DNA of 64,000 nt from Rhodanobacter sp. ANJX3 (lineage in GTDB: Bacteria; Pseudomonadota; Gammaproteobacteria; Xanthomonadales; Rhodanobacteraceae). The notes beneath the pieces are model-generated. The model was not told the origin of the DNA and ran no database searches. It saw nothing but the letters and a program-made list of their open reading frames with translations. This document shows positions 4,635 through 19,448 of the stretch, in pieces. Position 1 is the stretch's first letter. Each line of letters starts with the position of its first letter. The stretch is from NCBI RefSeq assembly GCF_014200755.1, contig NZ_JACHCM010000001.1:770367-834366 (forward strand), given 5' to 3'. The translations under genes were made by a program, and so were the position numbers.

Positions 4635-5396
4635 TCAGTGGGATGGATGATTGCAATACGGATGAGCGGAAGGAGTTGGCTCTAGCTCCGACAAGAACCT
4701 CGCATGCCGCAAAACCTCAGCTGCCTCAAGCGGTCCGCCATGGCCCATATGAAAGCGCTTCGCGCCGCCCTGGACGAGGCGTTCGAGTTCACGCGCAACC
4801 CGTTGCGGGTCATCTTCGAACGGAGGGCGAATAGCATGGCCTTTGAACGCGATACCACCGATCAGAATTCCCGATGCAATCAAGTCACCAACCAGGGCAT
4901 CTTGCGTCGATAGTTCAATCGCGATCGAGCCGGGGGTGTGCCCTGCCGTGTGGCGGACAATTCCGTCTATGCCAAAATCAAGCAGGCTCACGGCCTTCAC
5001 TTTATCCATCAGAATATCGGGCTCGAAGCCTTCATAAGGCTCGTGCGGAGCTGGCGTTTTCAGAAAAAGTTTGCCGAACCAACCGGTCGGACAGTAAGTC
5101 ATCGGCACTTTACGATTATAAAAATCGGCGTCGGCCTCGTGCGCCAAGATGGGTGCACCTGACAGTTTCCGTACACCTGCAGCGCTGCCCGCGTGGTCGG
5201 TGTGTGCATGCGTCACGACAATCAACTTGATGTCCTTGAAGGACAGGCCGTGCTGATCGAGTACCCGCGCGATTTTTCGCTCTGAACCGGGTATCCCTGT
5301 ATCGACGAGTATGCAGCCTGCCTCGCTTTTGATCAGGTGCGCGTTCACCATGCCGAAGGGCAAGATGGGGATCCGAATGATCTCTGGATTAGACAT
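4635..5396 (-). CDS. Metallo-beta-lactamase-fold hydrolase
   Basis: A 253-aa MBL-superfamily protein. It has the metal-binding motif THAHTDHAG near residue 62, then GHTPGS with a metal His, then GD (VGDLIASG) and a final GHGGP, so the whole binuclear metal site is present. Such enzymes hydrolyse thioesters, lactones or phosphodiesters in the cytoplasm. The start at ATG 5396 follows GAGG by 8 nt. It is distinct from the gloB gene at 11.6 kb and I cannot assign a substrate. Confidence 0.85.
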   Translation of the reverse strand: MSNPEIIRIPILPFGMVNAHLIKSEAGCILVDTGIPGSERKIARVLDQHGLSFKDIKLIVVTHAHTDHAGSAAGVRKLSGAPILAHEADADFYNRKVPMTYCPTGWFGKLFLKTPAPHEPYEGFEPDILMDKVKAVSLLDFGIDGIVRHTAGHTPGSIAIELSTQDALVGDLIASGILIGGIAFKGHAIRPPFEDDPQRVARELERLVQGGAKRFHMGHGGPLEAAEVLRHARFLSELEPTPSAHPYCNHPSH

Positions 5397-5538
5397 GAGC
5401 TTTTCCTCTGAGGTGCATGGGGTTAAATGCAAAACTGTGGGGTCAATCTTCATGGAGCGGATGCGTTGGGCCACCGTGTGAGTGACTCCAGCCATGTGGT
5501 GCTAGGGCCGTCACTTCTCACAACGTTCCCGAGCGAAG

Positions 5539-6411
5539 TCAGTTTCTGCCGGTCGCCGGGCGGGCCGCCCAACATTCTGGACACCTCAATAAGGCGGTCT
5601 GTGCATGCTGGGACCTTGAGGGGAATCCTTCCTGCACGATAGATAACGCGAACGTTCTGATCAGATCGGCGACGAGGTCGGGCGCTTCCAGCGGTGAGAG
5701 GTGGCCGACCTTAGGCAAGACGTAAAGCTCCGCCTGCGGTATGCGCGGGAGAAGCTCACGCCGCAGTCCTTCCGGTGGATCTACCCGATCGTGTTCGCCC
5801 GAGATGACGATGACCGGCACATCGATCGCCGCCACCGCTGTGGCGATGTCTTCCTGACTGCTGGCCAATGGCCACGCCTCTTTCGCTGCAGCAGCACCTG
5901 CAAGACTGTCGGCAATGACGGTTTCCCGGTCCTCCGCGTCGAGTCCGTCCGGCGCGAGCACCTGATCGAGCGTGGCGATGATGCTCTCGCGTGAATCGTA
6001 GGCCCGCACCATCCCTTCGCGAATCTCAAGTGGAAGATTGAGCGGCGTCGGCGGCGCTGGCGCCACCAGCGCAAGGCCAACCAATCCGCGCGGGCGACGC
6101 GACGCGATTAGCTGCGCCACCTTGCCGCCCATCGAATGCCCGACCAGGATGTAACGCTCCAGGTCGAGCGCTTCGACCACGGCCAGCGCATCGTTGGCCA
6201 TGTCCGCCAAAGCGTAGCCGCTCGCTGGCGCCGCCGACCTTCCCCAGCCGCGCTGATCGATCGCGATGGTGCGCAGATCCGGCGCCAGCGGGTCAACGAC
6301 GTGCTGCCACGTGCGCGAGGAGCCGCCCCAGTAGTGCAGAAAAACGACGGCGGGAGAGCCGGCGCCGCGCTGCTCAACGTGCAGCTCGATGCCATTGGAT
6401 ACGATCATCAT
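5539..6411 (-). CDS. Alpha/beta-fold hydrolase
   Basis: A 290-aa hydrolase. It has the oxyanion-loop segment FLHYWGGSSRTW, the nucleophile elbow GHSMGG (Ser about residue 95), an acid region with ISGEHDRVDPP and the catalytic His in VGHLSPLE. The fold ends near residue 255. The last ~35 residues (from IVQEGFPSRS) do not look like the family and may be a read-through tail after an old frameshift. It lies 36 bp from a second hydrolase gene on the same strand, so the two are probably cotranscribed. Confidence 0.8.
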   Translation of the reverse strand: MMIVSNGIELHVEQRGAGSPAVVFLHYWGGSSRTWQHVVDPLAPDLRTIAIDQRGWGRSAAPASGYALADMANDALAVVEALDLERYILVGHSMGGKVAQLIASRRPRGLVGLALVAPAPPTPLNLPLEIREGMVRAYDSRESIIATLDQVLAPDGLDAEDRETVIADSLAGAAAAKEAWPLASSQEDIATAVAAIDVPVIVISGEHDRVDPPEGLRRELLPRIPQAELYVLPKVGHLSPLEAPDLVADLIRTFALSIVQEGFPSRSQHAQTALLRCPECWAARPATGRN

Positions 6412-7251: not shown

Positions 7252-8217
7252 ATGCAGCGTCTCGGTGTATCGAGAACCCTCTGGTTCGTGGTGTTTCCCG
7301 GCTTCGAATTACTCGACCTTGGGGGACCGCTTTGCGCGTTCAACCTTGCCGTGGACTTCCATCAGGCGCGCTACGACATCCGCATCGTTTCAACCTCCGG
7401 CGGACTGGTGCGCGGGTCCTCCGGCGTAGCGATCGACAGCGTGCCGCCGCCGTCGCCGAACCACTTGGATACGCTGATGGTGGTCGGGGCGCCCACCGTG
7501 GATATCCTTGACGAGCAAACGGAGACCGCCGCTCTCGTGCGCGCGCTCGCCCCGCGCGCAAGGCGCTCGGCGAGCGTCTGCACCGGCGCGTTTTTGCTGG
7601 CCGCAGCAGGATTGCTCGACGGTCGCCGCGCGACCACGCACTGGCGCTACGCCGCCAAACTGCAACAGCGCCATCCGTCGATCAAGGTCGAGGCGGATCG
7701 CATCTTCGTTCGTGAGGACGATCTCTGGACGTCGGCCGGCATCACCGCCGGCATCGACCTCGCCCTGGCGATGATTGAAGAGGACTGCGGCATCGAGACG
7801 TCCAAAGCGATCGCCCGAGATCTTGTCGTGTATCACCGACGCAGTGGCGGCCAGTCGCAGTTCTCCACCATGCTTGAGCTCGAGCCGCGGCCCGGGCGTA
7901 TCCGTGACGCCCTCGCCTACGCCCGCACGCACCTGGACGAACGCCTCTCCGTCGAGCAACTGGCCGACGTGGCCAACATCAGCGCGCGCCAGTTTGCGCG
8001 CCAGTTCGTCGCGGAAACCGGCGAAACGCCGGCACATGCCATCGAACGCCTGCGCTGCGAAGCGGCGCTTCCGCGCATCGAGGGCACACGAGAACCGCTC
8101 GACCAGATCGCGATCAAAGTAGGATTCGGCGCGATGGAGCGTATGCGCCGCGTGTGTCTTCGCATCTACGGCCAGTCGCCACAGGCGCTGCGTCGACGGG
8201 GTCGCGCACAGACTTAG
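7252..8217 (+). CDS. GlxA-type transcriptional regulator (DJ-1/PfpI + AraC)
   Basis: A 321-aa regulator. Residues about 10-180 form a DJ-1/PfpI amidotransferase-like domain with the elbow cysteine in ASVCTGAFLLAAAG. Residues about 225-315 form an AraC helix-turn-helix domain (LSVEQLADVANISARQFARQF, split here as LSVEQLADVAN and ISARQFARQF). GlxA proteins usually sense small metabolites and activate neighbouring catabolic genes. The ATG at 7252 follows AGGAAA and gives the family N-terminus, better than the earlier start at 7210. The divergent esterase genes are the obvious target. Confidence 0.85.
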   Translation: MQRLGVSRTLWFVVFPGFELLDLGGPLCAFNLAVDFHQARYDIRIVSTSGGLVRGSSGVAIDSVPPPSPNHLDTLMVVGAPTVDILDEQTETAALVRALAPRARRSASVCTGAFLLAAAGLLDGRRATTHWRYAAKLQQRHPSIKVEADRIFVREDDLWTSAGITAGIDLALAMIEEDCGIETSKAIARDLVVYHRRSGGQSQFSTMLELEPRPGRIRDALAYARTHLDERLSVEQLADVANISARQFARQFVAETGETPAHAIERLRCEAALPRIEGTREPLDQIAIKVGFGAMERMRRVCLRIYGQSPQALRRRGRAQT

Positions 8218-8385
8218 GTAATAAGGAAGGCCTGCAAGTGCCTGCCTCCAAGGCGGTTGAATCGGTTACGTATCAAAAATGGAAGTTTCGCGCGCCGCGC
8301 TAAGGGGCAAGCCTGCGGCTGTTCGAATGCGTTCCGGACGCATTCGGCGAACCCCTGAGGTTCTCACCCTGTCGTCGTCCGCCAG

Positions 8386-8512
<127 letters not shown>

Positions 8513-8624
8513 AAAGGCTTTGCATGGTGGTTCATGCGAGCCGGAGATGATACGCGCAGAGGGCTTTCGTGACAACAACCATGACATCCGGCATGCTCCA
8601 CCCACTCGCCGCACCAGACAAGTC

Positions 8625-9326
8625 ATGATCGAATTCGGACACGGAACGCACGTTGGCCTGCGCCGCCTGCGCAACGAAGACACCTATTACGCCGACGCAT
8701 CGCTGGGCCTGTTTCTGGTCGCCGACGGCATGGGCGGTCACCAGCACGGCGAGGTGGCCTCGGCGATGGTGCGCGACACCGTGGTGGATCTGGTCACGCG
8801 CGGCCACAGCTTGGTGGAGGCCGTGCAGGGTGCGGGCGAGCGGTTGCTGGCGCATGCGCGCGGAGGCCGCGAAATGCTGCCGATGGGCACCACCATCGCG
8901 GCGCTGCGCGTGGTTGCCGACGGTTACGAGGTAGCCTGGGTCGGCGACAGCCGCATCTATCGCTGGAAGGCCGGGCTGCAGCAGATCAGCCACGATCACT
9001 CGCTGGTGCAGGCGTTGGTGGAGTCCGGCCAGTTGGACGCCGCGCAAGCGTCGAAACATCCGCAGCGCAACGTGCTGACACAGGCGTTGGGCGTCACGGC
9101 GACGGAGCAGCTGCATATCGGCATGGCGCGCGGTCGGCTGGAAGCCGGCATGGCGTTCGTGCTGTGCACCGACGGCCTGACCGAGAGCATCAGCGACGCT
9201 GCGATTGCCCACACTGTTACGCGCACGGATCTGGCCTCGCAGGAATGCGTCGATCAGCTCTTGCTCGGTGCGCTTGACGGCGGCGGCGATGACAACATCA
9301 CGGTCGTCATGGTGCGCTACACCTGA
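8625..9326 (+). CDS. PP2C-family serine/threonine phosphatase
   Basis: A 233-aa soluble phosphatase (PP2C/Stp1-like). It shows RLRNEDTYY, the metal motif LVADGMGGH (about residue 36), MGTT, WVGDSRIY, LCTDGLTE and the terminal GGGDDNITVV, so all metal-binding aspartates are present. Such enzymes reverse Ser/Thr phosphorylation of cytoplasmic proteins or act with type VI secretion or kinase partners. No kinase gene lies in the window. The start at ATG 8625 begins the domain exactly; an upstream start at 8520 would run through the tRNA leader. Confidence 0.9.
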   Translation: MIEFGHGTHVGLRRLRNEDTYYADASLGLFLVADGMGGHQHGEVASAMVRDTVVDLVTRGHSLVEAVQGAGERLLAHARGGREMLPMGTTIAALRVVADGYEVAWVGDSRIYRWKAGLQQISHDHSLVQALVESGQLDAAQASKHPQRNVLTQALGVTATEQLHIGMARGRLEAGMAFVLCTDGLTESISDAAIAHTVTRTDLASQECVDQLLLGALDGGGDDNITVVMVRYT

Positions 9327-9339
9327 CGACCGGATTCGC

Positions 9340-10047
9340 TCAGTTGAGCTGGCGCCAAAGACTTTTACCGCCGGCGCTTTTATCCAGCGCATCCAGCCGC
9401 TGTTCGTGCAGCGCCAGCTCGTCGGCATCGGCACGGAGAATTCGCGGGCGCGCGCGCAGCGTGATCGGCGCCAGGGTAACCGCGTGGTTCTCTTCGCCAG
9501 CGCTTTCAAAGCCGAGGTCGAAGGCGACCTGCCCCGATGTCATGGCCAGATAGACATCGGCCAGCAGCTGCGCATCGATGAGGCCACCGTGCAGATCGCG
9601 ACGCGAGTTGTCCACGCCCAGTCGTTTGCACAGCGCATCCAGGCTGTTGCGCTGGCCGGGGTAGCGATCGCGCGCCATCTTCAACGTATCCAGCACGCTG
9701 CAGCGGTCGGTGATGCAACCCAGGCCCTGCTCCAGCGCAGCGAGTTCGGCGTCCAGAAAGCCCACGTCGAAGCTGGCGTTGTGGATGATCAGCTCGGCGC
9801 CATCGACAAAGGTCAGAAACTCCTGCACCACGTCGGCGAACAGCGGCTTGTCGAGCAGAAACTCGTCCTCGATGCCGGTGACCTGCCGAGCGCCTTCGTC
9901 CATGGGGCGGCCCGGGTTGAGATAGGTCTGGTAGTAGCGGCCGGTGAGGCGGCGCTCGACCAGTTCGACGCAGGCGATCTCGACCAGGCGATGGCCCTGA
10001 CGCACCTCGAGGCCGGTGGTTTCGGTATCAAGGACGATCTGCCTCAT
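9340..10047 (-). CDS. dnaQ: DNA polymerase III epsilon subunit (proofreading exonuclease)
   Basis: A 235-aa DnaQ. It has the exonuclease motifs Exo[11 protein letters not shown] (residues 5-14), Exo[13 protein letters not shown] and Exo[17 protein letters not shown], and a C-terminal tail that would bind the alpha subunit. It removes misincorporated bases in the replisome. The start codon overlaps the rnhA stop by 4 nt, and the rnhA-dnaQ pair is a standard gammaproteobacterial arrangement. Confidence 0.95.
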
Positions 10048-10556: not shown

Positions 10557-11246
10557 CTAAAGGCTGGCGCTGCGCCGCGTACTCGGCGACAGCCGGCCGG
10601 TTGCCGGCACCGCGACCGGGTTGGTTTGAATCCGCAGCGGCGTCACCGCGCGCCGGCGCTTGCGCGCGATAAGCACGAAGCCACCGCCAAGCAGTTTGGC
10701 GCTGCTTGCGTGCGCGGTTGCATTGCCCGGCAGTACGCCGCCCACCCGCTGGGCTTGCTCGATGTCGAAACCCTCGCGCTGCAGATCGGTCATCAGGCGC
10801 AGCGGCATGCTGAACTTGAGGCCCGCGCCGCGCGAACGCCAGCGGACCCAGGGCGCCCACGCGCTCATCGGATGCACGCCGGTGATTGCGAGCACTCCAC
10901 CCGGCGCCAGCACGCGAACCGCTTCGTCCAGCAAGGGGCCGGGCACGGTACTGGCTTCCAGAGCATGCTGCAACAGAACCAGTTCAAAGGCGTCATCGAC
11001 AAACGGCAGCGACTCGTCGCCCGCCGCCAGCAGATCGCCGCGATAGCGGCCACCCTGCAGCTGCATGCGGATCCAGCATCCAAGCATGGGCAGTGCCGGT
11101 GGCGCAGCCTCGTCGGGCGAGGTTCCGATCAGCAGCGCGTAATCGCCTACGCAGCGCTGCAAGGCGGGAGTCATCGCCCGCGTCTGCTCATCCTGCAAAC
11201 GGCGTACCGGCGCACTGGCGTAGATATTTTCGTCGCGTCGGGACAT
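10557..11246 (-). CDS. SAM-dependent methyltransferase-like protein
   Basis: A 229-aa class I methyltransferase-like protein. It has the post-motif region LPFVDDAFELVLLQHALE and VLAPGGVLAITGVHPMS, but motif I is poorly conserved (no clear GxGxG). It sits just upstream of rnhA and dnaQ on the same strand, as in other Xanthomonadales and Pseudomonas, and may be cotranscribed. The start at ATG 11246 (MSRRDENIY) was preferred to an upstream frame extension lacking family sequence. Its substrate is unknown. Confidence 0.75.
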   Translation of the reverse strand: MSRRDENIYASAPVRRLQDEQTRAMTPALQRCVGDYALLIGTSPDEAAPPALPMLGCWIRMQLQGGRYRGDLLAAGDESLPFVDDAFELVLLQHALEASTVPGPLLDEAVRVLAPGGVLAITGVHPMSAWAPWVRWRSRGAGLKFSMPLRLMTDLQREGFDIEQAQRVGGVLPGNATAHASSAKLLGGGFVLIARKRRRAVTPLRIQTNPVAVPATGRLSPSTRRSASL

Positions 11247-11573
11247 GCGGTCTTTCCGGTTGGAACTACCGTGCGAGTGTAACGGCTCACGGCAAGGCGG
11301 TGCCGCTCGCCCATCGATCGCCGTAGGAACTCGGCCGGCGAGCTGAACCATTCATCCGGCGGTTAACGCCTTGATAACGACCCGCCGGGCGGAGCTGTTT
11401 ATAGTCGCTCGGCTTACGCCTGCCCGACTTATTTGCGCAAGGGGATGATCGAACACCAGACATACCGCCGGCCGTGCGCGAGTTGCGCCATAAGTTGAGA
11501 AAAGGCCGGTGACCGCTGCAGCTTTTCGGCAGCCCATTCTCAGATTGTCGATCCAGAGAGTTCGGAGATCCTC

Positions 11574-12338
11574 GTGCACCTCATACCCTTGCCGGCGCTC
11601 GCCGATAACTACATCTGGCTCCTCCATGACGACGAAGGTATGGCGATCGTGGTCGATCCGGGCGACGCCGCGGTGGTGCAGCACGCTTTGACGACGCGAC
11701 ATCTCACTCTGCGGGCGATCCTGCTGACGCACCACCACCCCGATCATATCGGCGGCGTGGCCGAACTGCGCCGTCATCACGACGTGCCCGTGTATGCGCC
11801 GACCGACGATCGCATCGGCGAAGCCACGGTGCATGTGCACGACGGCGAACGCATCGCGCTGGCCTCGCCGTGCGTCGAGTTCGAGGTGATCGCGGTTCCT
11901 GGGCATACCCTCAGCCACGTGGCCTACGTCGGCGACGGCCTGCTGTTCTGCGGCGATACTCTTTTCAGCATGGGCTGCGGCCGACTCTTTGAAGGTACGC
12001 CGCAGCAGATGCTTAGCTCGCTGGATCGGCTGTGCGCACTGCCCGATACCACCGAAGTCTGCGGCGGCCACGAGTACACCCAAGCCAATGGGCGGTTTGC
12101 CTGCACCATCGAGCCGCACAATCCCCATCTGCACGAGCGCATGAAAGAAGTAGCCATACTGCGCGCGCAGGAAAAGCCGACGCTACCCGTAACGATAGCC
12201 GTCGAACGCGCGACCAATCCGTTTCTTCGCGTGGACAGCGACGCGATCGCGCAATGGTGCAGTCAGCAAGGCGCCACTGGCGACGATCGCATCGCCCGTT
12301 TCGCGGCGCTGCGCAGCGCCAAGGACGCTTTCCGTTGA
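11574..12338 (+). CDS. gloB: Hydroxyacylglutathione hydrolase (glyoxalase II)
   Basis: A 254-aa MBL-fold enzyme with the glyoxalase II signature THHHPDHIGG near residue 53, GHTLSHVAY, FCGDTLFSMGCGRLFEGT and GGHEYTQAN. It hydrolyses S-lactoylglutathione to lactate and glutathione in methylglyoxal detoxification. Translation starts at GTG 11574 (MHLIPLPALADNYIW, the standard GloB N-terminus). The stop overlaps the mltD start in TTGA. It is divergent from the methyltransferase-rnhA-dnaQ genes, another classic arrangement. Confidence 0.95.
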   Translation: MHLIPLPALADNYIWLLHDDEGMAIVVDPGDAAVVQHALTTRHLTLRAILLTHHHPDHIGGVAELRRHHDVPVYAPTDDRIGEATVHVHDGERIALASPCVEFEVIAVPGHTLSHVAYVGDGLLFCGDTLFSMGCGRLFEGTPQQMLSSLDRLCALPDTTEVCGGHEYTQANGRFACTIEPHNPHLHERMKEVAILRAQEKPTLPVTIAVERATNPFLRVDSDAIAQWCSQQGATGDDRIARFAALRSAKDAFR

Positions 12339-13570
12339 ACGCCCGGCGATGGCGGTCGCTGCTGCCGGCCCTGTCGATACTCCTGGCCGCCTGCGTCGGC
12401 ACGCCCTCGCAAAGTCCTCGTCGAGCGGTTATCAAGAAGCCCGTCGTCGTTATCAATCACGTCACTCCGCCGGCGGTCACTCCACCCTCGGTAAACGTAC
12501 CCGCGGTGCCCGACTTCTGGCCGCAGATGCGCAGCAGTTTTGCGATGAGCGATTGCGATGCGGACCCTGCCGTCCTGGCGTGGGCGCAGCGCTATACCAA
12601 AAACCCCGACCACTTCGAGGATCAGCTGCGCCAGGCGATGCCGCAGTTGATCTATGTGCACGAGGTGGCCACCCGCTACGGCGTTGCCGGCGAATTCGCG
12701 CTGCTGCCGTGGATCGAAAGCGGTTTTCAATCGCTGCCGGGACGCCGCAACCGACCCGCCGGCATGTGGCAGATCATGCCGATGACAGCCAACAAGATGG
12801 GGCTGCGGGTGGACGGCCGCTTCGACGCACGGCTTGACGTGGATGCTTCCGCCAACGCGGTCATGAAATTGCTCAGCCACTACCACGATAAATTCGACGA
12901 CTGGCGCGTCGTCGATTACGCGTACAACACCGGCGAATTCAACGTCGCCAAGCTGGTCGACAAATTCGGTACGCCACCGGCGGAACCGGTAATCCCGCAT
13001 CTGCCGGTCAAAAGCGGCACGAAAGAGCACCTGACGCGACTGCTGGCGATGGCCTGCGTAGTGCGCGAACCAGAGCGCTTCGGCGTCAGCTTGCCGACCA
13101 TTTCCGACGAACAGCATCTGGTGCAGGTGGGCATCTCGCAATCCATGCCAATGGCCAAAGCTGCGGATCAGGCCGGCATACCGGTGAGCAAGATGAAAGA
13201 TCTCAACGCGGCGTTTCGCGGCAACACGATGGATGCCGGCGCCGTGTCGTATGTGCTGTTGCCTGCCAATCATGCACAGCAGTTTCGTGACTCGCTACTG
13301 CAGACGCCGAGCGCGACTGATACCAATGCCGTGCCGTCTGCGGATGACGTCCAGCAGGACGCCGACGCAACGGCTGAAACAAACCCTTCAAAAGCAGCCA
13401 CGAGAAAACCGGCACCGAGCGGAAAAACCCATACAGTAAAAAGCGGCGAAAGCCTGTGGCAGATCGCGCACCGATATTCTGTCAGCACCAAGAAACTGCA
13501 GCAGTGGAATCATCTGCGTGGCCCTGCGCTGAAGCCTGGACAGGTGCTTAAGGTGAGCGGCGACGAATGA
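12335..13570 (+). CDS. mltD: Membrane-bound lytic murein transglycosylase D-like lipoprotein
   Basis: A 411-aa protein. It has a lipoprotein signal peptide ending LLAAC, an SLT domain with the catalytic Glu128 in LPWIESGFQS and GMWQIMP, YNTGEFNV, and a C-terminal LysM domain (HTVKSGESLWQIAHRYSVS). MltD cleaves peptidoglycan glycan strands to 1,6-anhydro products at the outer-membrane inner face. The TTG start overlaps the gloB stop. Only one LysM repeat is visible, where E. coli MltD has two. Confidence 0.9.
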   Translation: MNARRWRSLLPALSILLAACVGTPSQSPRRAVIKKPVVVINHVTPPAVTPPSVNVPAVPDFWPQMRSSFAMSDCDADPAVLAWAQRYTKNPDHFEDQLRQAMPQLIYVHEVATRYGVAGEFALLPWIESGFQSLPGRRNRPAGMWQIMPMTANKMGLRVDGRFDARLDVDASANAVMKLLSHYHDKFDDWRVVDYAYNTGEFNVAKLVDKFGTPPAEPVIPHLPVKSGTKEHLTRLLAMACVVREPERFGVSLPTISDEQHLVQVGISQSMPMAKAADQAGIPVSKMKDLNAAFRGNTMDAGAVSYVLLPANHAQQFRDSLLQTPSATDTNAVPSADDVQQDADATAETNPSKAATRKPAPSGKTHTVKSGESLWQIAHRYSVSTKKLQQWNHLRGPALKPGQVLKVSGDE

Positions 13571-13969: not shown

Positions 13970-15040
13970 TCAGACGATGAACATCGGCAGGCGATCGTTG
14001 CTCACCCATACGCCCTGCCGGCGGCCCAGTTCGACATATCTGCCCTGCGCGTACTGCAAGATCTGGTAGCTGGACTCGCCAGGCAATTCGGTGAAAAGGA
14101 AATTGTCGGGATCGTTGACGTCGACGCGTCCGGTGCGGGCGTTGTAACGACCTACCTGGAAGATCGGCTCGGGAAAATGGTTACCCGCGTAAGACATGCC
14201 GTCGGTCAACATCACCAGCGCACCATCGCGTACGGCCACGGCCTGGTCGACGATGGACATGCCGCAGGAGGTCACCAGCTGTAGGTCGAGATTGATCGAG
14301 TCCGGGCCCAGCGATTGCCGGATGACGCTGACCGCGTTCTTCACCACCTGCATGCAGTGATCAAGGCACACCTCGAGGCCGAGGCTCATGCCGTCCCAGT
14401 AGATCAGGTTGTCGAGATGCTGGTCGGGATTGAGACGGAAACTGTAGGTGGTGGTGGGGTCCAGGTTGGCATGCGAGTGTGGGTCGGGGCCGTCGATATT
14501 GGAAATGTAGTGCTTTTCCATCAGAACATAGGGAACACTGTCATCCATCACCGGCCGCCTGCCACGCAGCATAATGGCCGTGTTGAGCAGGTTCAGCCGC
14601 CCATCGGGGCGCGGAGTCATGGCCGAGCAGATGGTGCCAGCGACAATCGTCCAGTCATTGAACAGGGCGGACTGATGGATAGCGTCGTAGAGCGCTTCGG
14701 CGAGGGCGTAGCGAGATTCCTCCGGATACGAGCCGAAACTGGTTCCCGGCACGAAGCCGCCACGGCGCACTTCTTCCGCGGAAGCCTTGCGGAAATAGAA
14801 CTCCGGAACGATGAACACCTTCAGCGTGTCGCTGTCGGCCATGCCATCGTGATCTTTGTAGGTGTTTGCAGTCCAGTACAGGACGTTGACTAGGCGCTGG
14901 GCGCGAGCCTGGAGGTCCGGATCCTGAAGCTGGATCAGCGGCGCCTGGCCTTTGGGCTGTACGATGCCATGGTCCGCGGGATAGAACGTGGGCGCCATGA
15001 GGCTGAGCGGCAGTATGGAGCGATATCGAGGTGTCGGCAT
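13970..15040 (-). CDS. Nitrilase-superfamily carbon-nitrogen hydrolase, end of R-body-type operon
   Basis: A 356-aa enzyme. The Glu-Lys-Cys triad of the nitrilase superfamily is recognisable: Glu in FIVPEFYFRK, Lys in LMEKHYIS and Cys in GLEVCLDHC. Family members hydrolyse nitriles or amides or transfer acyl groups. Long insertions between motifs distinguish it from common amidases, so substrate and exact fold remain open. It is the last gene of the minus-strand cluster that starts with four RebB-like genes; a 96-bp gap separates it from the previous gene. A carbon-nitrogen hydrolase in such a cluster is unexpected. Confidence 0.7.
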   Translation of the reverse strand: MPTPRYRSILPLSLMAPTFYPADHGIVQPKGQAPLIQLQDPDLQARAQRLVNVLYWTANTYKDHDGMADSDTLKVFIVPEFYFRKASAEEVRRGGFVPGTSFGSYPEESRYALAEALYDAIHQSALFNDWTIVAGTICSAMTPRPDGRLNLLNTAIMLRGRRPVMDDSVPYVLMEKHYISNIDGPDPHSHANLDPTTTYSFRLNPDQHLDNLIYWDGMSLGLEVCLDHCMQVVKNAVSVIRQSLGPDSINLDLQLVTSCGMSIVDQAVAVRDGALVMLTDGMSYAGNHFPEPIFQVGRYNARTGRVDVNDPDNFLFTELPGESSYQILQYAQGRYVELGRRQGVWVSNDRLPMFIV

Positions 15041-15136
15041 GATGCTGTACTCCTGCAGTGGCTGAGTATGGGTACGCCCTGGTTCAAGCTATGACCCGGG
15101 TCCGGGGCGCACCGGAACCCGATCGTCGACCGGCTT

Positions 15137-15832
15137 TCAAAGCGCCAGCTTTGCCAGCCAGTAGATGGCCCGCGCTGCTTGCAGCCCGATGGTCTGGTCT
15201 TCCGCGGCGATCGCCTTCGTGGGCAAGGCGAAAGGCACCGGTATGCCGGGGACAATGACGATCGGGACGCCATGGATATCCGTGGACAGCGGCCGCGGTT
15301 CGGGCACGCCGGCGAACGCGTGGCGCAGCGCCATGACGATGCCCGCCAGTACGAGGATGGCGAGCATGGCGATCAGCAGCACGATGTACTTTATGGGAGG
15401 AACGGGAATCTTCTGGATAAGGTTCGCGACGAAGCCGACGGCGATTTGGCAATCGAGGTTCAACGGGCAATTCAGCGTCCGGGCGAGTTCGTCCTGCACT
15501 AGATCACCGGGTTGCTGGATGAAGGTCACCTCATAGGATTTTCCCTTGACGATCACGGGAGCGACGAGGCTTCGCTTGCCCTGGACATTGGTTTGCGCAA
15601 GGTAATCGACGCGACTTATGTCCGTTCCCAGCGGAGTGGGCGCGTGAAGCGTCAGCCAGTCGATGACATGCCGGGGCAGCACAACTTCCTGGCTATTCGC
15701 CTGCACCACGAAGAAATCGCCATCGGGTTGTGGCGCACCGGACGGCCACGAGGACTGGCTCCAGGCGTCGGGAAACGCAACGACGATCACCTGTTCGGGA
15801 AGTGGCCGAGGTTCGTAGCGCTGCCTGGTCAT
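15137..15832 (-). CDS. Membrane protein of the R-body-type operon, unknown function
   Basis: A 231-aa protein not recognised by family. The N-terminal ~140 residues are soluble and beta-rich. One strong membrane helix follows (YIVLLIAMLAILVLAGIVMA, about residues 149-168), then a hydrophobic, proline-rich C-terminal tail. It starts 4 bp after the preceding gene, so it is translationally linked to the small genes upstream. Its place between RebB-like genes and a nitrilase suggests a role at the membrane in the same system, which is inference. Confidence 0.7.
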   Translation of the reverse strand: MTRQRYEPRPLPEQVIVVAFPDAWSQSSWPSGAPQPDGDFFVVQANSQEVVLPRHVIDWLTLHAPTPLGTDISRVDYLAQTNVQGKRSLVAPVIVKGKSYEVTFIQQPGDLVQDELARTLNCPLNLDCQIAVGFVANLIQKIPVPPIKYIVLLIAMLAILVLAGIVMALRHAFAGVPEPRPLSTDIHGVPIVIVPGIPVPFALPTKAIAAEDQTIGLQAARAIYWLAKLAL

Positions 15833-15836
15833 GGGT

Positions 15837-16058
15837 TCAGTCCTTTCGTGCCAGCGCCGTCACGGCTTCATAGGCGAAAAGGCCTTCCACGATAGCCGTG
15901 CCGCTCAAGGCCAGCGAGGCGAAGATGAGCGGCGTGGCCTCGTTGCCCAGGATTTGCATCATGAAGGTGTAACCGGCTTCTGCGCTCGGTATCGCCGTCG
16001 CGTTGAGCGCGTCGGCGGCCGCGAGCGGTGCCGTGACGATGCTTCCGGTCGCCGCCAT
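15837..16058 (-). CDS. Small hydrophobic protein of the R-body-type operon
   Basis: A 73-aa Ala-rich protein with two hydrophobic stretches (about residues 29-52). It begins 3 bp after the upstream gene and ends 4 bp before the next, so all three belong to one transcript. Family unknown. It may be a membrane microprotein or a small R-body-associated subunit. Confidence 0.6.
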   Translation of the reverse strand: MAATGSIVTAPLAAADALNATAIPSAEAGYTFMMQILGNEATPLIFASLALSGTAIVEGLFAYEAVTALARKD

Positions 16059-16061
16059 GGC

Positions 16062-16265
16062 TCAGCGGCCCGGTGCGGGTGGAAGGTTGTAGAGCTTGCG
16101 GATGCGATCGAGCACCTTGTTGTTCTCTTCCGTGATGATGCGCATCTGCTCATCTGCGTCGCCTTCGACGCCGAGCAATGCGATGTTCGTCGCAACCTTC
16201 GTCATCGACTCGGCGATTCGTTCCACGGCCTCGCTGAGTTGCGAGATCGATTCCTTCTCGTTCAT
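16062..16265 (-). CDS. Small coiled-coil protein of the R-body-type operon
   Basis: A 67-aa acidic, highly helical protein (SQLSEAVERIAESMTKVATN then NNKVLDRIRKLYN) with heptad-like spacing. Its ATG overlaps the preceding stop as ATGA. It is not recognised as a known family. Its size and helicity would suit an assembly factor for R-body subunits, but that is only inference. Confidence 0.65.
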   Translation of the reverse strand: MNEKESISQLSEAVERIAESMTKVATNIALLGVEGDADEQMRIITEENNKVLDRIRKLYNLPPAPGR

Positions 16266-16576
16266 CGCCTTGTCCTCGCAGAATGGGTGGTGTCGTCATT
16301 CGACTCCAGGAGTGGATGCCTCGGCTTTCCCGGATCGACGACGAGCTGCCGGTTGACGTACTGGATGCAATCCGCGAATGGGCGGGGACCAAAGGCCGGG
16401 GGCTGGTCTTCCGATAGCGAACTGGCGGGCACGATGGTGAGAATCCTGTCCTCGCCGGTGTGCACCACCGCGTAGTGCGGCACGACGAGGTTTGCCTTGA
16501 AGCCCTGTTGCGCGCGCGAGGTGATCTGCTCGATGAGCATCCGGTTGTAATCCTCCATGGGCGTTTCGTTCGTCAT
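16262..16576 (-). CDS. Small protein of the R-body-type operon, unknown function
   Basis: A 104-aa soluble protein of unknown family, starting at ATG 16576 with a 4-nt overlap with the RebB-like gene before it. The N-terminal half is helical (DYNRMLIEQITSRAQQGF), a central segment predicts beta strands (LVVPHYAVVHT, DRILTIVP) and the C-terminus is basic and probably disordered. Confidence 0.65.
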   Translation of the reverse strand: MTNETPMEDYNRMLIEQITSRAQQGFKANLVVPHYAVVHTGEDRILTIVPASSLSEDQPPAFGPRPFADCIQYVNRQLVVDPGKPRHPLLESNDDTTHSARTRR

Positions 16577-16920
16577 GGCGATGCGAACGCCTCGATGGAT
16601 GCCTTGAGCCCGGCGATCTCGCGTGCCAGTTCATTGGACGTGAACACGGTGACGGCGGATCGTGCCGTCGTGGGTGACGTTGTCTGTACGGCGTTTACCG
16701 CGTCGGCGAGAATCATCTGCCGCAACCGGTACATAGCATCCTGGTTGGCGACCTGCGACCGCGCCGCCATGCCAGTGCTGCCGACCTGGTTGGAAAAGGC
16801 CAGATCGCTCAGGGCGCCAGGAAGTTCGGCAATGGTCGCGCCGGCCACGGAAACCGCTCCCTTGGGGCCGGCGCTGCCGTCGGCCTCTTCGATGGATATG
16901 CTTACGTCTATCGTTTCCAT
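16573..16920 (-). CDS. RebB-like R-body protein, divergent paralogue
   Basis: A 115-aa protein aligning with its upstream neighbours: LPGALSDLAFSNQVGSTGMA, then SQVANQDAM, then TTARSAVTVFTSNELAREIA and a closing LKASIEAF. It is the most divergent of the four RebB-like copies, having lost the N-terminal ISEQP segment and gained a beta-like leader. GAGGG precedes the ATG. RebB-family proteins polymerise into R-bodies, retractable cytoplasmic ribbons. Assignment follows the paralogues rather than direct family recognition. Confidence 0.5.
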   Translation of the reverse strand: METIDVSISIEEADGSAGPKGAVSVAGATIAELPGALSDLAFSNQVGSTGMAARSQVANQDAMYRLRQMILADAVNAVQTTSPTTARSAVTVFTSNELAREIAGLKASIEAFASP

Positions 16921-16985
16921 GTTTACGACCCTCTGAAAAGCCGGGATGGCCGCACGGCCATCCCGGAGTCATTGCCGCAAGGCGA

Positions 16986-17486
16986 TTACCGCGAACGCTT
17001 CACCCTGAGGACGATGCCGCGACCAGTATCGACGGCCACTTCCACATCATCCTTGGTGAACTTCCCTGGGATGAAGACCTCAAGTGCCCGGCCATCGGGC
17101 ACGACAACCACCAGCTGTCCCTGATCGTTGATCGCCAGATCGAGATCACGAAGCCGCAGGTGCTTTGCGCCCTTATGCGGAGCGGCGAAGGCTTCGACGG
17201 AGGCCTTGAGATCGGCGATCGTCTGGGCAAGCTCGTTGTTGGTGAGCACATCCAACGCGGAACGACTGTCCATCGGGCCGAGATCGGACACCGTGTTGAC
17301 CGCTTTCGCCACGATCGGTGTGCTGATCTGGTTACCGGCCTGCTGGTTGGCCACAGCGTTCTGCTGGCCCAGGTTGGTGGTGGATACCACGTTCGAGTAG
17401 GCCAGGTTGGACAACAAGGCCGGCTGCTCCGAGATCGCCTTGAGGTTGCCCGTCGCCACCGCACTGACTATCTGTTCATGTAACAT
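16986..17486 (-). CDS. RebB-like R-body protein with C-terminal extension
   Basis: A 166-aa protein. Residues 1-100 closely match the next upstream paralogue (ISEQPALLSNLAYSN, then QQNAVANQQA, then NNELAQTIADLKAS). Residues about 105-166 are a unique beta-rich tail (QGQLVVVVPDGRALEVFIPG then GIVLRVKRS). The QQNAV...QQ pattern is what I recognise from RebB killing-trait proteins. A strong AGGAGG lies upstream of ATG 17486. The tail may give this copy a different role, such as capping or nucleation. Confidence 0.6.
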   Translation of the reverse strand: MLHEQIVSAVATGNLKAISEQPALLSNLAYSNVVSTTNLGQQNAVANQQAGNQISTPIVAKAVNTVSDLGPMDSRSALDVLTNNELAQTIADLKASVEAFAAPHKGAKHLRLRDLDLAINDQGQLVVVVPDGRALEVFIPGKFTKDDVEVAVDTGRGIVLRVKRSR

Positions 17487-17521
17487 GATCCGTCCTCCTG
17501 ATTAACGGCAGTGCTATCGAC

Positions 17522-17836
17522 TTACTTGGGGAACGCCTGCAGCGTTGCCTTCAAGTCGGCGATGGTCTGTGCCAGCTCGTTGTTGGTCAGGATGTCGACG
17601 GCCGAACGGGCTTCCAGGGGGCCGAGGTTGCTGATCGTGTTGGAGGCCTTGGCCACGATGGAGATACCGAGCTCATTCATGGCCTGCTGGTTGGCCACGG
17701 CGTTCTGCTGCGACAGGTTGGTGCTGGCCACGGTATTGGAGTAGGCCAGGTTGGACAGCATCGCGGGCTGTTCGGAGATGGACTTCAGATTGCCGATTGC
17801 AACTGCGCTCACGACGTCTTCGGGAAGGGTTGCCAT
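17522..17836 (-). CDS. RebB-like R-body protein
   Basis: A 104-aa protein with the core pattern VVSAVAIGNLKSISEQPAM, LSNLAYSNTVASTN, QQNAVANQQA and a shared C-terminus NNELAQTIADLKATLQAF. RebB proteins build R-bodies, coiled protein ribbons first known from Paramecium endosymbionts, which unroll on a trigger such as low pH. AGGAGA precedes ATG 17836, which I chose over an upstream in-frame start without a ribosome site. It is a close paralogue of the next gene downstream. Confidence 0.6.
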   Translation of the reverse strand: MATLPEDVVSAVAIGNLKSISEQPAMLSNLAYSNTVASTNLSQQNAVANQQAMNELGISIVAKASNTISNLGPLEARSAVDILTNNELAQTIADLKATLQAFPK

Positions 17837-17976
17837 ACGAATTCTCCTGTTAGAAGGTGATGGTTGATGTATCCGACTTGCCTGATGAGAGCCTCCTGAC
17901 GGAGGCATCCACCGCATTCACTTGCGATGAATGCGCATGAATTCGCTATGCGGGTGGCGCGATCCACGAACACCCG

Positions 17977-18312
17977 TCATGTGTCGTCCTGGGACTGGCG
18001 CCCCTGCTCCTTGTTCTTGATGAGCCGCTCCATGTCCTTGACAATCTTCTCTATGTCCTTGCCCATCTGGTCGATGGAGGACTGGTTCTTGCAGCCGGCG
18101 TTGTCGATTATCGCCACGCATTTGGCCGTGGCGGCCATCTGCACTTGGTTCATCGCCTGCTGCTGGCTCAGACTGATCTGCTGCTGCATGTTCTGGTTGA
18201 AGATCTGCTGGGCGAGTGCCAGGTTCGCCAGGATGGCTGGTTGCTCGCCGATCGATTTCGCGTTGGATATCGCGATTGCCTGGACTATGTCATCCGGAAG
18301 TTGGCCAGCCAT
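17977..18312 (-). CDS. RebB-family R-body protein, first gene of operon
   Basis: A 111-aa protein and the best RebB match of the set: IAISNAKSIGEQPAILAN, then LALAQQIF and SLSQQQAMNQVQMAATAKCV, corresponding to the N-k-l-P...QQ...AAT pattern of the RebB (killing trait) family. The C-terminal third is a charged coiled coil (MGKDIEKIVKDMERLIKNKE). The ATG at 18312 follows a GGGGGA ribosome site. The gene leads the operon. It contains one central Cys pair (KCVAIIDNAGC) absent from the other copies. Confidence 0.65.
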   Translation of the reverse strand: MAGQLPDDIVQAIAISNAKSIGEQPAILANLALAQQIFNQNMQQQISLSQQQAMNQVQMAATAKCVAIIDNAGCKNQSSIDQMGKDIEKIVKDMERLIKNKEQGRQSQDDT

Positions 18313-18382
18313 GTGTCCCCCATGGATTAAAGGGCGACGTGTTGTCGTTCGCCCGTTTCGATGGAGTGATCTTATGAGCGCA

Positions 18383-18435
18383 GGTACCGGATACAAGTAT
18401 CGTTACCGTAACCGCGGATGCCGTGTTGCGGTAAC
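18383..18435. promoter_or_regulatory. Inverted repeats between R-body operon and regulator
   Basis: The divergent intergenic region has an imperfect palindrome GGTACCGGATAC-AA-GTATCGTTACC (18383-18407) overlapping a second pair GTTACCG (18402-18408) and CGGTAAC (18429-18435). Their location upstream of the first RebB-like gene suggests an operator, probably for the divergent regulator or another factor. Confidence 0.4.
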
Positions 18436-18704
18436 AATGCCTGACTGCAGCGGCTCTGGAGTTATCGTCGGAGACGCAGACCCAGTCGACTCCATCCATG
18501 CGCCATACACTCCTAGCCGTCGGCAATTCGGCTGATGCCGTTTTCTTGACGCCGGCATTCGCGCCCGGACGAGAGGGCGGAGGTCCAAGGGGCAGGTCGA
18601 CGCGTATCGGACATCCTTCCATCTGACCCGTACGCCCCCACAGCACGCCACTGGGCCGGGCGCGCGCCATCTAGGACGGAGTGGGATTTCAAGGAGGGGG
18701 GAAT

Positions 18705-19448
18705 GTGGTGAAGAATGACAACGAAGTCAGTGAGGATGTAGCCAAGGGAGAGATACGAGTCGCTTACGAGTCGGTGCTGGCCAGTGAAACCTTCCTGAAG
18801 GCACATCGCATGCGTCGCCTTTTCCGATACCTCGTGGATCAGGCGCTGGAAGGTTGTTCGGGCAATGTCAGCGAGTACACCATCGGCATCGAGGTATTCG
18901 ATCGGCGGCCGGAAGATTTCATCTCAGAGGATCCAGCCATCAGGGTGCAGGTGGGCCGACTCCGTCACCGCCTGGCCGGCTACTACACCGAACACGCGGT
19001 ATCGGGCGATGTCGAGATCAGTATCCCGTTGGGACGTCTGACGCCGGTGTTCCGCCGTATCGTGCGGCCGGAGCAGTCGGTGGCGCAGGACGACCGCCTT
19101 CTGGTTCAGCCGATCAGATATCTGGCGGACCGCACGGAAGGCAGAGCGTTCGCAAACGGACTATACGAAGAGCTGATCAACCAGCTGTTCTCATCATTCG
19201 GTGATGTTTTCGTGCGCCAGGAGGCGGCATCGGACGCCGCAGGCCCCGGCACGCCGCGCCGGCTTATCGAGGGCAGCATGAGGGTGGACGCGGAGCGGAT
19301 ACGTACCTCCATACGACTGGTCGATTACTCGCTTCGGCGTATCACATGGGCGCAGAATTTTGATCGCTCCGTGCAGTTCGGTATACGGGAGCAGGAGGAA
19401 CTGGCGGCATCGATATGTCATGCGTTGCGTGGTGTGGTATCGACGTGA
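18705..19448 (+). CDS. Putative regulator divergent from the R-body operon
   Basis: A 247-aa soluble protein. Its N-terminal half (RMRRLFRYLVDQAL, EYTIGIEVFDR, then IRVQVGRLRHRLAGYY) is a module seen at the N-terminus of adenylate-cyclase-like and TolB-domain regulators. The C-terminal half resembles the TolB/FlgO-like segment (GRAFANGLYEELINQL, then GSMRVDAERIRTSIRL and WAQNFDR). It is likely a transcriptional or signalling regulator of the adjacent operon. The GTG at 18705 was chosen because AAGGAGGGGG lies just upstream; the GTG at 18681 precedes that site. No clear helix-turn-helix is seen. Confidence 0.6.
   Translation: MVKNDNEVSEDVAKGEIRVAYESVLASETFLKAHRMRRLFRYLVDQALEGCSGNVSEYTIGIEVFDRRPEDFISEDPAIRVQVGRLRHRLAGYYTEHAVSGDVEISIPLGRLTPVFRRIVRPEQSVAQDDRLLVQPIRYLADRTEGRAFANGLYEELINQLFSSFGDVFVRQEAASDAAGPGTPRRLIEGSMRVDAERIRTSIRLVDYSLRRITWAQNFDRSVQFGIREQEELAASICHALRGVVST

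Follow-up and report, generated by a model that had tools for sequence, protein, structure and literature searches.

A gene cluster of scattered soil and plant bacteria that probably encodes R-bodies and closes with one of several enzymes

What does a bacterium build from four small Reb-like proteins that are encoded in one run with a nitrilase-like enzyme and opposite a regulator? The question is raised by a 64,000-nucleotide stretch of Rhodanobacter sp. ANJX3 (contig NZ_JACHCM010000001.1, positions 770,367–834,366), here called the window, in which nine co-directional genes on the minus strand (g1–g9, 18312 to 13970) and a divergent regulator gene (reg) occupy positions 13970–19448. The initial annotation had described this nine-gene run with its divergent regulator, and the re-checked open reading frames (ORFs) and coordinates agree with it. 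We regard all ten ORFs as real genes because they recur in 13 other loci and because nonsynonymous substitution (dN) lies far below synonymous substitution (dS) for every one of them in comparison with two Luteibacter copies (against the copy L060, dN/dS is 0.004/0.28 for g2 and 0.092/0.61 for g9). As judged from sequence comparisons, the cluster is likely an operon for R-bodies that belongs to a divergent “avenae” lineage and has an exchangeable enzyme gene in last position.

Profile comparisons place g1–g4 among the Reb homologues; for g4, the relationship shows mainly in its matches to g2 and g3. A hidden Markov model (HMM) of canonical Rebs, derived from an alignment of 19 proteins of the same order (from 19 of the 21 loci L011–L031, two being outside the filter), matches all 14 copies each of g1, g2, and g3 and four of 14 copies of g4 at E ≤ 0.001; the copies of g5–g9 and reg score no better than E 0.47. 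The canonical alignment pairs with g2 and g3 over ∼100 columns (probability 91% for g2; 94% and E 1.1e-7 for g3) and weakly with g1 and g4 (36 and 33%, g1 over 58 columns). Among themselves, the profiles g2–g3 (7.6e-58), g2–g4 (4.1e-32), and g1–g2 (9.1e-16) match significantly, which bears out the earlier view of four paralogues; g1 reaches 5e-14 or better and g4 4.1e-32 or better against both g2 and g3. Nothing was matched by the g5–g9 profiles in the same comparison with g1–g4 and canonical Rebs. When the g1–g4 profiles were searched in reverse against 3146 ORFs of 21 regions, their best matches fell on the places found with PF11747 (RebB), an agreement worked out by hand for the twelve matches listed per profile.

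Reb proteins have been described by a KxxxD/E motif with a proline, NAV/QQ motifs, and a QITD signature (PMC13430693). Both g2 (NLKSISEQPA) and g3 (NLKAISEQPA) also contain NAVANQQ, so the NAV..QQ pattern previously assigned to all four proteins is literal in these two; g1 has NAKSIGEQPA but only QQQ, and g4 shows neither motif in full. Tandem small Rebs with KxxxE-Pro and NAV/QQ motifs are likewise found at the canonical loci (Caedibacter reb; Raymann Groups 1 and 2; P. aeruginosa PA14). Tandem runs of three or more reb genes are seen here too, with four genes in each of the 14 loci that carry all ten genes and in four further clusters that lack g9.

R-bodies were reportedly observed in Pseudomonas avenae by Wells and Horne in 1983, as cited by Raymann et al. 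in 2013. For this species, now Acidovorax avenae, PMC3583457 states the presence of R-bodies, counts four “very divergent” Reb homologues in strain ATCC 19860, and links them to the R-bodies of the species (Raymann 2013). We find all ten genes in order in ATCC 19860 (G310:C1), and the window cluster matches the locus gene for gene. The g3 profile gives exactly four matches in this genome, all within the avenae-type locus, equal to the count in PMC3583457. PF11747 exceeds its cut-off in none of 17 Paracidovorax-genus genomes (G306 has 18.8 bits, elsewhere than the module). The R-body role proposed in the initial annotation is supported by the Reb homology and by the location in this cluster of the only g3-profile matches of ATCC 19860, a strain of a species with reported R-bodies; the window organism may form R-bodies as well.

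The tie between A. avenae R-bodies and four Rebs is already published. New are the partners g5–g9, the regulator, the palindromes upstream of g1, the occurrence in Xanthomonadales, and the variation in the last gene; the available part of PMC3583457 describes no g5–g9, regulator, palindromes, or Xanthomonadales carriers. PMC13430693, in its available part, names Acidovorax and leaves out the non-Reb neighbours, and PMC3499465, on the outer-membrane proteome of A. avenae, yielded no R-body terms. A literature search combining Reb, R-bodies, and nitrilase returned no paper, nor did we find one describing this partner set in a search that had supplements and subscription journals outside its reach.

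All ten genes occur in 14 distinct loci: two in Luteibacter, one each in Dyella mobilis, Lysobacter penaei, “[Pseudomonas] boreopolis”, and the genome G189, seven in Paracidovorax-genus genomes, and the window. Gene order is identical in 12 of them; in L061, g9 lies beyond reg, and in L064, reg follows g9. Reg and g1–g8 recur as a set, and tandem palindromes precede g1. Among 299 genomes of the order, g8 is found in four and g9 in five, the source genome included. In the neighbourhood survey called for by the initial annotation, g8 always accompanies the Reb-like quartet (four of four), and g9 adjoins it in three genomes and is solitary in two. A phylum-wide search for g9 (398 genomes) found the source genome alone, and a pattern-based scan of an 84,980-species collection with the g9 alignment returned 11 loci, nine with the ten genes and two in Lysobacter with g9 alone.

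Where flanks were compared across genera (eight of the 14 loci), the sole similarity is a protein of 311–412 amino acids (28–45% identity) at varying distance. The genes flanking the window cluster, which we take to be ppiD-like, mltD-like, and others, were not found in the DNA around the 13 other loci. The corresponding site was read in five of the 14 congener genomes; all five lack the cluster there, and ppiD lies next to mltD.

The enzyme g9 has no match in Pfam, NCBIfam, PHROGs, or PADLOC and finds no PDB chain by profile at E 10. The Pfam nitrilase domain likewise matches none of the 16 g9 members, which places them outside the curated sequence family. As no family was recognized by sequence, the fold was modelled. 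AlphaFold2 on the 16 sequences yields a predicted template modeling (TM) score of 0.86 and a mean predicted local distance difference test (pLDDT) of 78. Foldseek returns 15 matches at E ≤ 0.001, all in the nitrilase superfamily, several of them placed there on our own presumption: formamidases, Nit2/Nit3, CJ1056C, carbamoylases, an amidase, a pyrimidine-degrading enzyme, and NAD synthetase. Because the TM-scores by query length are low (0.34–0.43), g9 must be a distant member of the superfamily. Like formamidase AmiF, Nit2/Nit3, and carbamoylases, it combines the predicted α-β-β-α fold with an intact Glu-Lys-Cys triad (E80, K176, and C225, kept in all 14 cluster copies), whereas the failure to match the Pfam domain and the low TM-scores set it apart. 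Predicted fold and triad together support the earlier assignment of g9 to the nitrilase superfamily.

Copies of g9 also exist outside the cluster. Three solitary ones in Lysobacter-side genomes (L009, L010 (= L069), and L070) keep Glu and Lys and have the Cys replaced by Gly in all three cases; the three genomes all carry canonical reb genes elsewhere. A distant g9 homologue with a PEFFFR motif is encoded on an Azospirillum argentinense plasmid (L071, 8001–8648), around which neither g1–g8 nor reg is detected by blastp at E 0.1, nor g5–g8 or reg by profile. The reb loci of Raymann Groups 1 and 2 have the partners HP1.1–1.4 or HP2.1–2.4, of which HP1.1 is a protein of about 360 amino acids with a copy on an Azospirillum brasilense plasmid (PMC3583457). 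We dropped the equation of g9 with HP1.1 as unproven, the sole plasmid match being the 24.9% homologue in two A. argentinense records.

Four further clusters keep reg and g1–g8 and lack g9 (L105 in G317, L106 in G318, L107 in G321, and L104 in G292), so that g9 is present in 14 of 18 clusters. Among the 17 Paracidovorax-genus genomes, the g3 profile detects the quartet in 10, and g9 is found in seven; the remaining three are G317, G318, and G321, and G292 is a genome of the order. In two of the g9-less clusters, g8 is followed by a protein of the Rv2525c glycoside-hydrolase-like (GH-like) family PF08924 (L106, 7301–8011, 55.6 bits; L107, 6554–7294, 59 bits; cut-off 27.2), which occurs in none of the 14 g9-bearing loci. 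L105 retains a short remnant of the GH-like protein after g8, and in L104 (G292:C23, from a 410-contig draft genome), g8 is followed by an ORF of 187 amino acids (8224–8787) that is unrelated and finds no match in Pfam, NCBIfam, or plasmids. The last position therefore varies between g9, a PF08924 protein, a remnant, and the 187-residue ORF.

PF11747 is present in 30 of the 299 genomes of the order, and the module was compared with 20 canonical regions, which come from 18 of the 29 RebB-positive genomes other than the source genome. One of these regions, L041, contains the only further relative of the GH-like protein among 50 sequences searched (297–983, 57–59% identical), a feature it has in common with the two avenae-type clusters. 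The gene lies downstream of the reb genes on the same strand, with a 356-amino acid ORF among the intervening frames. A tentative proposal, which we rate as less likely than not, sees the avenae-type module as a weapon based on R-bodies, with the ribbon genes, g5–g8, and the switch constant and the enzyme slot exchangeable. Since the hydrolase-like protein is common to a canonical reb locus and two of these clusters, the slot would in that case hold the long-sought effectors of R-bodies.

Several findings weigh against an R-body operon with an exchangeable enzyme. The RebB search proposed earlier matched g2 (E 6.2e-4) and g3 (E 2.7e-4) below the curated cut-off of 24 bits (bit scores in Table 1), so neither is a curated RebB member, and it gave no Pfam match for g1 and g4; a whole-genome search with PF11747 leads to g3 as the single place, with 23.1 bits. 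None of the 12 aligned sequences has the QITD signature, which separates them from canonical Rebs. Searches of the 20 canonical regions for g5–g9 and reg gave best values of E 0.19 by tblastn and E 0.34 by profile, and thus no significant match. In one carrier, Luteibacter anthropi, a canonical RebB gene is present as well (G299, E 2.1e-17), and R-bodies are reported for A. avenae, not for the window organism, and are a prediction for the Xanthomonadales carriers. Regarding the enzyme, g9 is dispensable to the gene set because four of 18 clusters lack it, and the GH-like protein stands at one of the 20 canonical regions only.

The missed Pfam cut-off, the absence of QITD, and the lack of g5–g8 and reg at canonical loci would fit the alternative that g1–g4 build another helical polymer or inclusion, one that forms no extendable coiled ribbon and gives the module a different job. 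We consider this improbable in view of the Reb homology with its KxxxE-Pro and NAV/QQ motifs, and of A. avenae, which has reported R-bodies and in whose strain ATCC 19860 the g3-profile matches lie in this locus alone.

The g9-less clusters also bear on the possibility that the genes at the end of the operon, g9 included, have no R-body part and are mere passengers or serve metabolism. This possibility, which we rate as rather unlikely but deserving of some weight, accords with the g8–g9 gap of 76–127 nt (13 clusters where the two adjoin), wider than the g4–g8 spacing, and with the three solitary g9 copies and the plasmid homologue that has no g1–g8 beside it. Against it, g9 is kept by 14 of the 18 clusters, which belong to distant genera, and the displaced g9 of L061 still adjoins reg. 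Moreover, the catalytic Cys is lost in the solitary copies only, and where g9 is replaced in two clusters, it is by another enzyme-like protein that recurs at a canonical reb locus.

The proposed R-body operon appears to possess its own regulatory site. Upstream of g1, the window contains GTTACCGCAAC, a spacer of 12 nt, GTTACGGTAAC, and GATACTT, a composite that matches the window once, 0 times in 100 shuffles, and only at this place genome-wide, where it is reported for both strands. Allowing at most one mismatch, it is present in 13 of the 14 ten-gene loci, L007 having one base less between the boxes; it is retained in L064 despite the moved reg. The strict pattern fails in the g9-less clusters, in which looser boxes are seen (two at 21–22 nt from each other in L105, L106, and L107; the second box only in L104), and no site is found in the 20 canonical regions at four substitutions. 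The repeats claimed by the initial annotation are therefore real as a repeated element but best described as tandem palindromes. Downstream of them, TAAGAT is a candidate −10 element by its alignment with orthologues; a sigma-70 scan found nothing. The regulator of the window has no Pfam match above a cut-off, and we presume a resemblance to winged-helix and TolB-like domains. In L062, reg matches in two frames (4931–6250), and in L105, it matches in two pieces ∼1.1 kb apart (11139–13201); because of these breaks, both regulators are possibly broken or mis-sequenced. Alignment A6 left out L062.

A patchy accessory module with an enzyme, a possible membrane protein, and its own switch could also be imagined as an anti-phage or abortive-infection system acting through a membrane-active polymer. 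This is very unlikely, as the ten proteins all go without a PADLOC match at E 0.1, and no relatives of g9 and g3 were present in the viral contigs scanned, nor of g2 in phage records. A phage origin of the module was rejected on the same two viral-contig scans (g9 and g3) and one phage search (g2).

The genes of the proposed R-body operon are closely packed (Table 1). Intergenic distances from g1 to g9 range from −4 to 140 nt, with 140 nt between g1 and g2, 35 nt between g2 and g3, 65 nt between g3 and g4, overlaps or at most 4 nt from g4 to g8, and 96 nt between g8 and g9. For g5, Pfam, NCBIfam, PHROGs, and PADLOC give no match. The predicted structure of g8 is of low confidence (pLDDT 54.6), and the protein is a possible membrane anchor.

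Table 1. Features of the Reb-like cluster, with positions in the window
Feature	Positions	Strand	Remarks
g9, nitrilase-superfamily protein, 356 aa, E80/K176/C225	13970–15040	−	Predicted from model, Foldseek, and triad conservation
g8, 231 aa, predicted N-terminal β part followed by long helices	15137–15832	−	In 14/14 ten-gene loci
g7, small protein with hydrophobic stretches, 73 aa	15837–16058	−	In 14/14 ten-gene loci
g6, small protein, 67 aa	16062–16265	−	In 14/14 ten-gene loci
g5, small protein, 104 aa	16262–16576	−	In 14/14 ten-gene loci
g4, most divergent Reb-like protein, 115 aa	16573–16920	−	g2–g4 profile E 4.1e-32
g3, Reb-like protein with ∼60-aa C-terminal extension, 166 aa	16986–17486	−	PF11747 21.4 bits
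g2, Reb-like protein, 104 aa	17522–17836	−	PF11747 20.2 bits; canonical Reb matched by profile over the full length
g1, Reb-like protein, 111 aa	17977–18312	−	KSIGEQPA, QQQ; canonical Reb HMM E 1.6e-5
−10-like TAAGAT (candidate)	18369–18374	−	20 nt after GATACTT; aligned TAAGAT, TAGGAT, or similar in orthologues
Tandem palindromes GTTACSGYAAC, 12 nt, GTTACSGTAAC, then GATACTT	18395–18435	−	Upstream of g1
reg, divergent regulator, 255 aa	18681–19448	+	In 14/14 ten-gene loci, once in two frames

The C-terminal extension of g3 (16986–17170) contains an IPG..(K/R)E(D)(V/I) pattern that by eye resembles part of a small heat-shock domain; the idea was discarded, as the three PDB matches of the extension are weak and include no heat-shock protein. 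Three genomes of the Paracidovorax genus each have a small ORF of its own (L108, 3869–4324; L109, 3743–4153; L110, 3920–4405) that matches this extension only, with no match to the Reb part of g3 and none in Pfam.

Smaller sets of Reb-like genes without g5–g9 or reg also occur. L101 (G214, 8504–9722) and L103 (G265, 8194–9144) consist of one g1-like and one g2-like gene only, and L102 (G003, 8402–9768) has three Reb-like genes. The g2 relative of L101 (g2-HMM E 6.9e-54) reaches the RebB cut-off with 24 bits, and the g1-like proteins of L101 and L103 have a common N-terminal extension.

If the cluster is indeed an R-body operon of the avenae lineage, g1–g4 would polymerise into a coiled ribbon. 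The proteins g5–g8 would help assembly or tether the ribbon to the membrane, g7 and g8 perhaps forming the membrane link and g5 and g6 perhaps assisting, and reg would bind the palindromes and switch the operon. The last gene would supply an enzyme that acts with the ribbon, here an amide-acting relative of nitrilases and in two other genomes a glycoside-hydrolase-like protein. The weakest step of this proposal is to cast the enzyme as an effector, since it could instead serve in maturation or release.

The toxicity of R-bodies and their helper proteins have been an open question since the work on the killers of Paramecium. A constant ribbon part joined to a varying enzyme at the end of the operon would name candidates for R-body effectors. 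For the R-bodies reported in A. avenae, a complete set of candidate genes would be at hand together with a regulatory site, and the avenae lineage would widen to Luteibacter, Dyella, Lysobacter, and their relatives.

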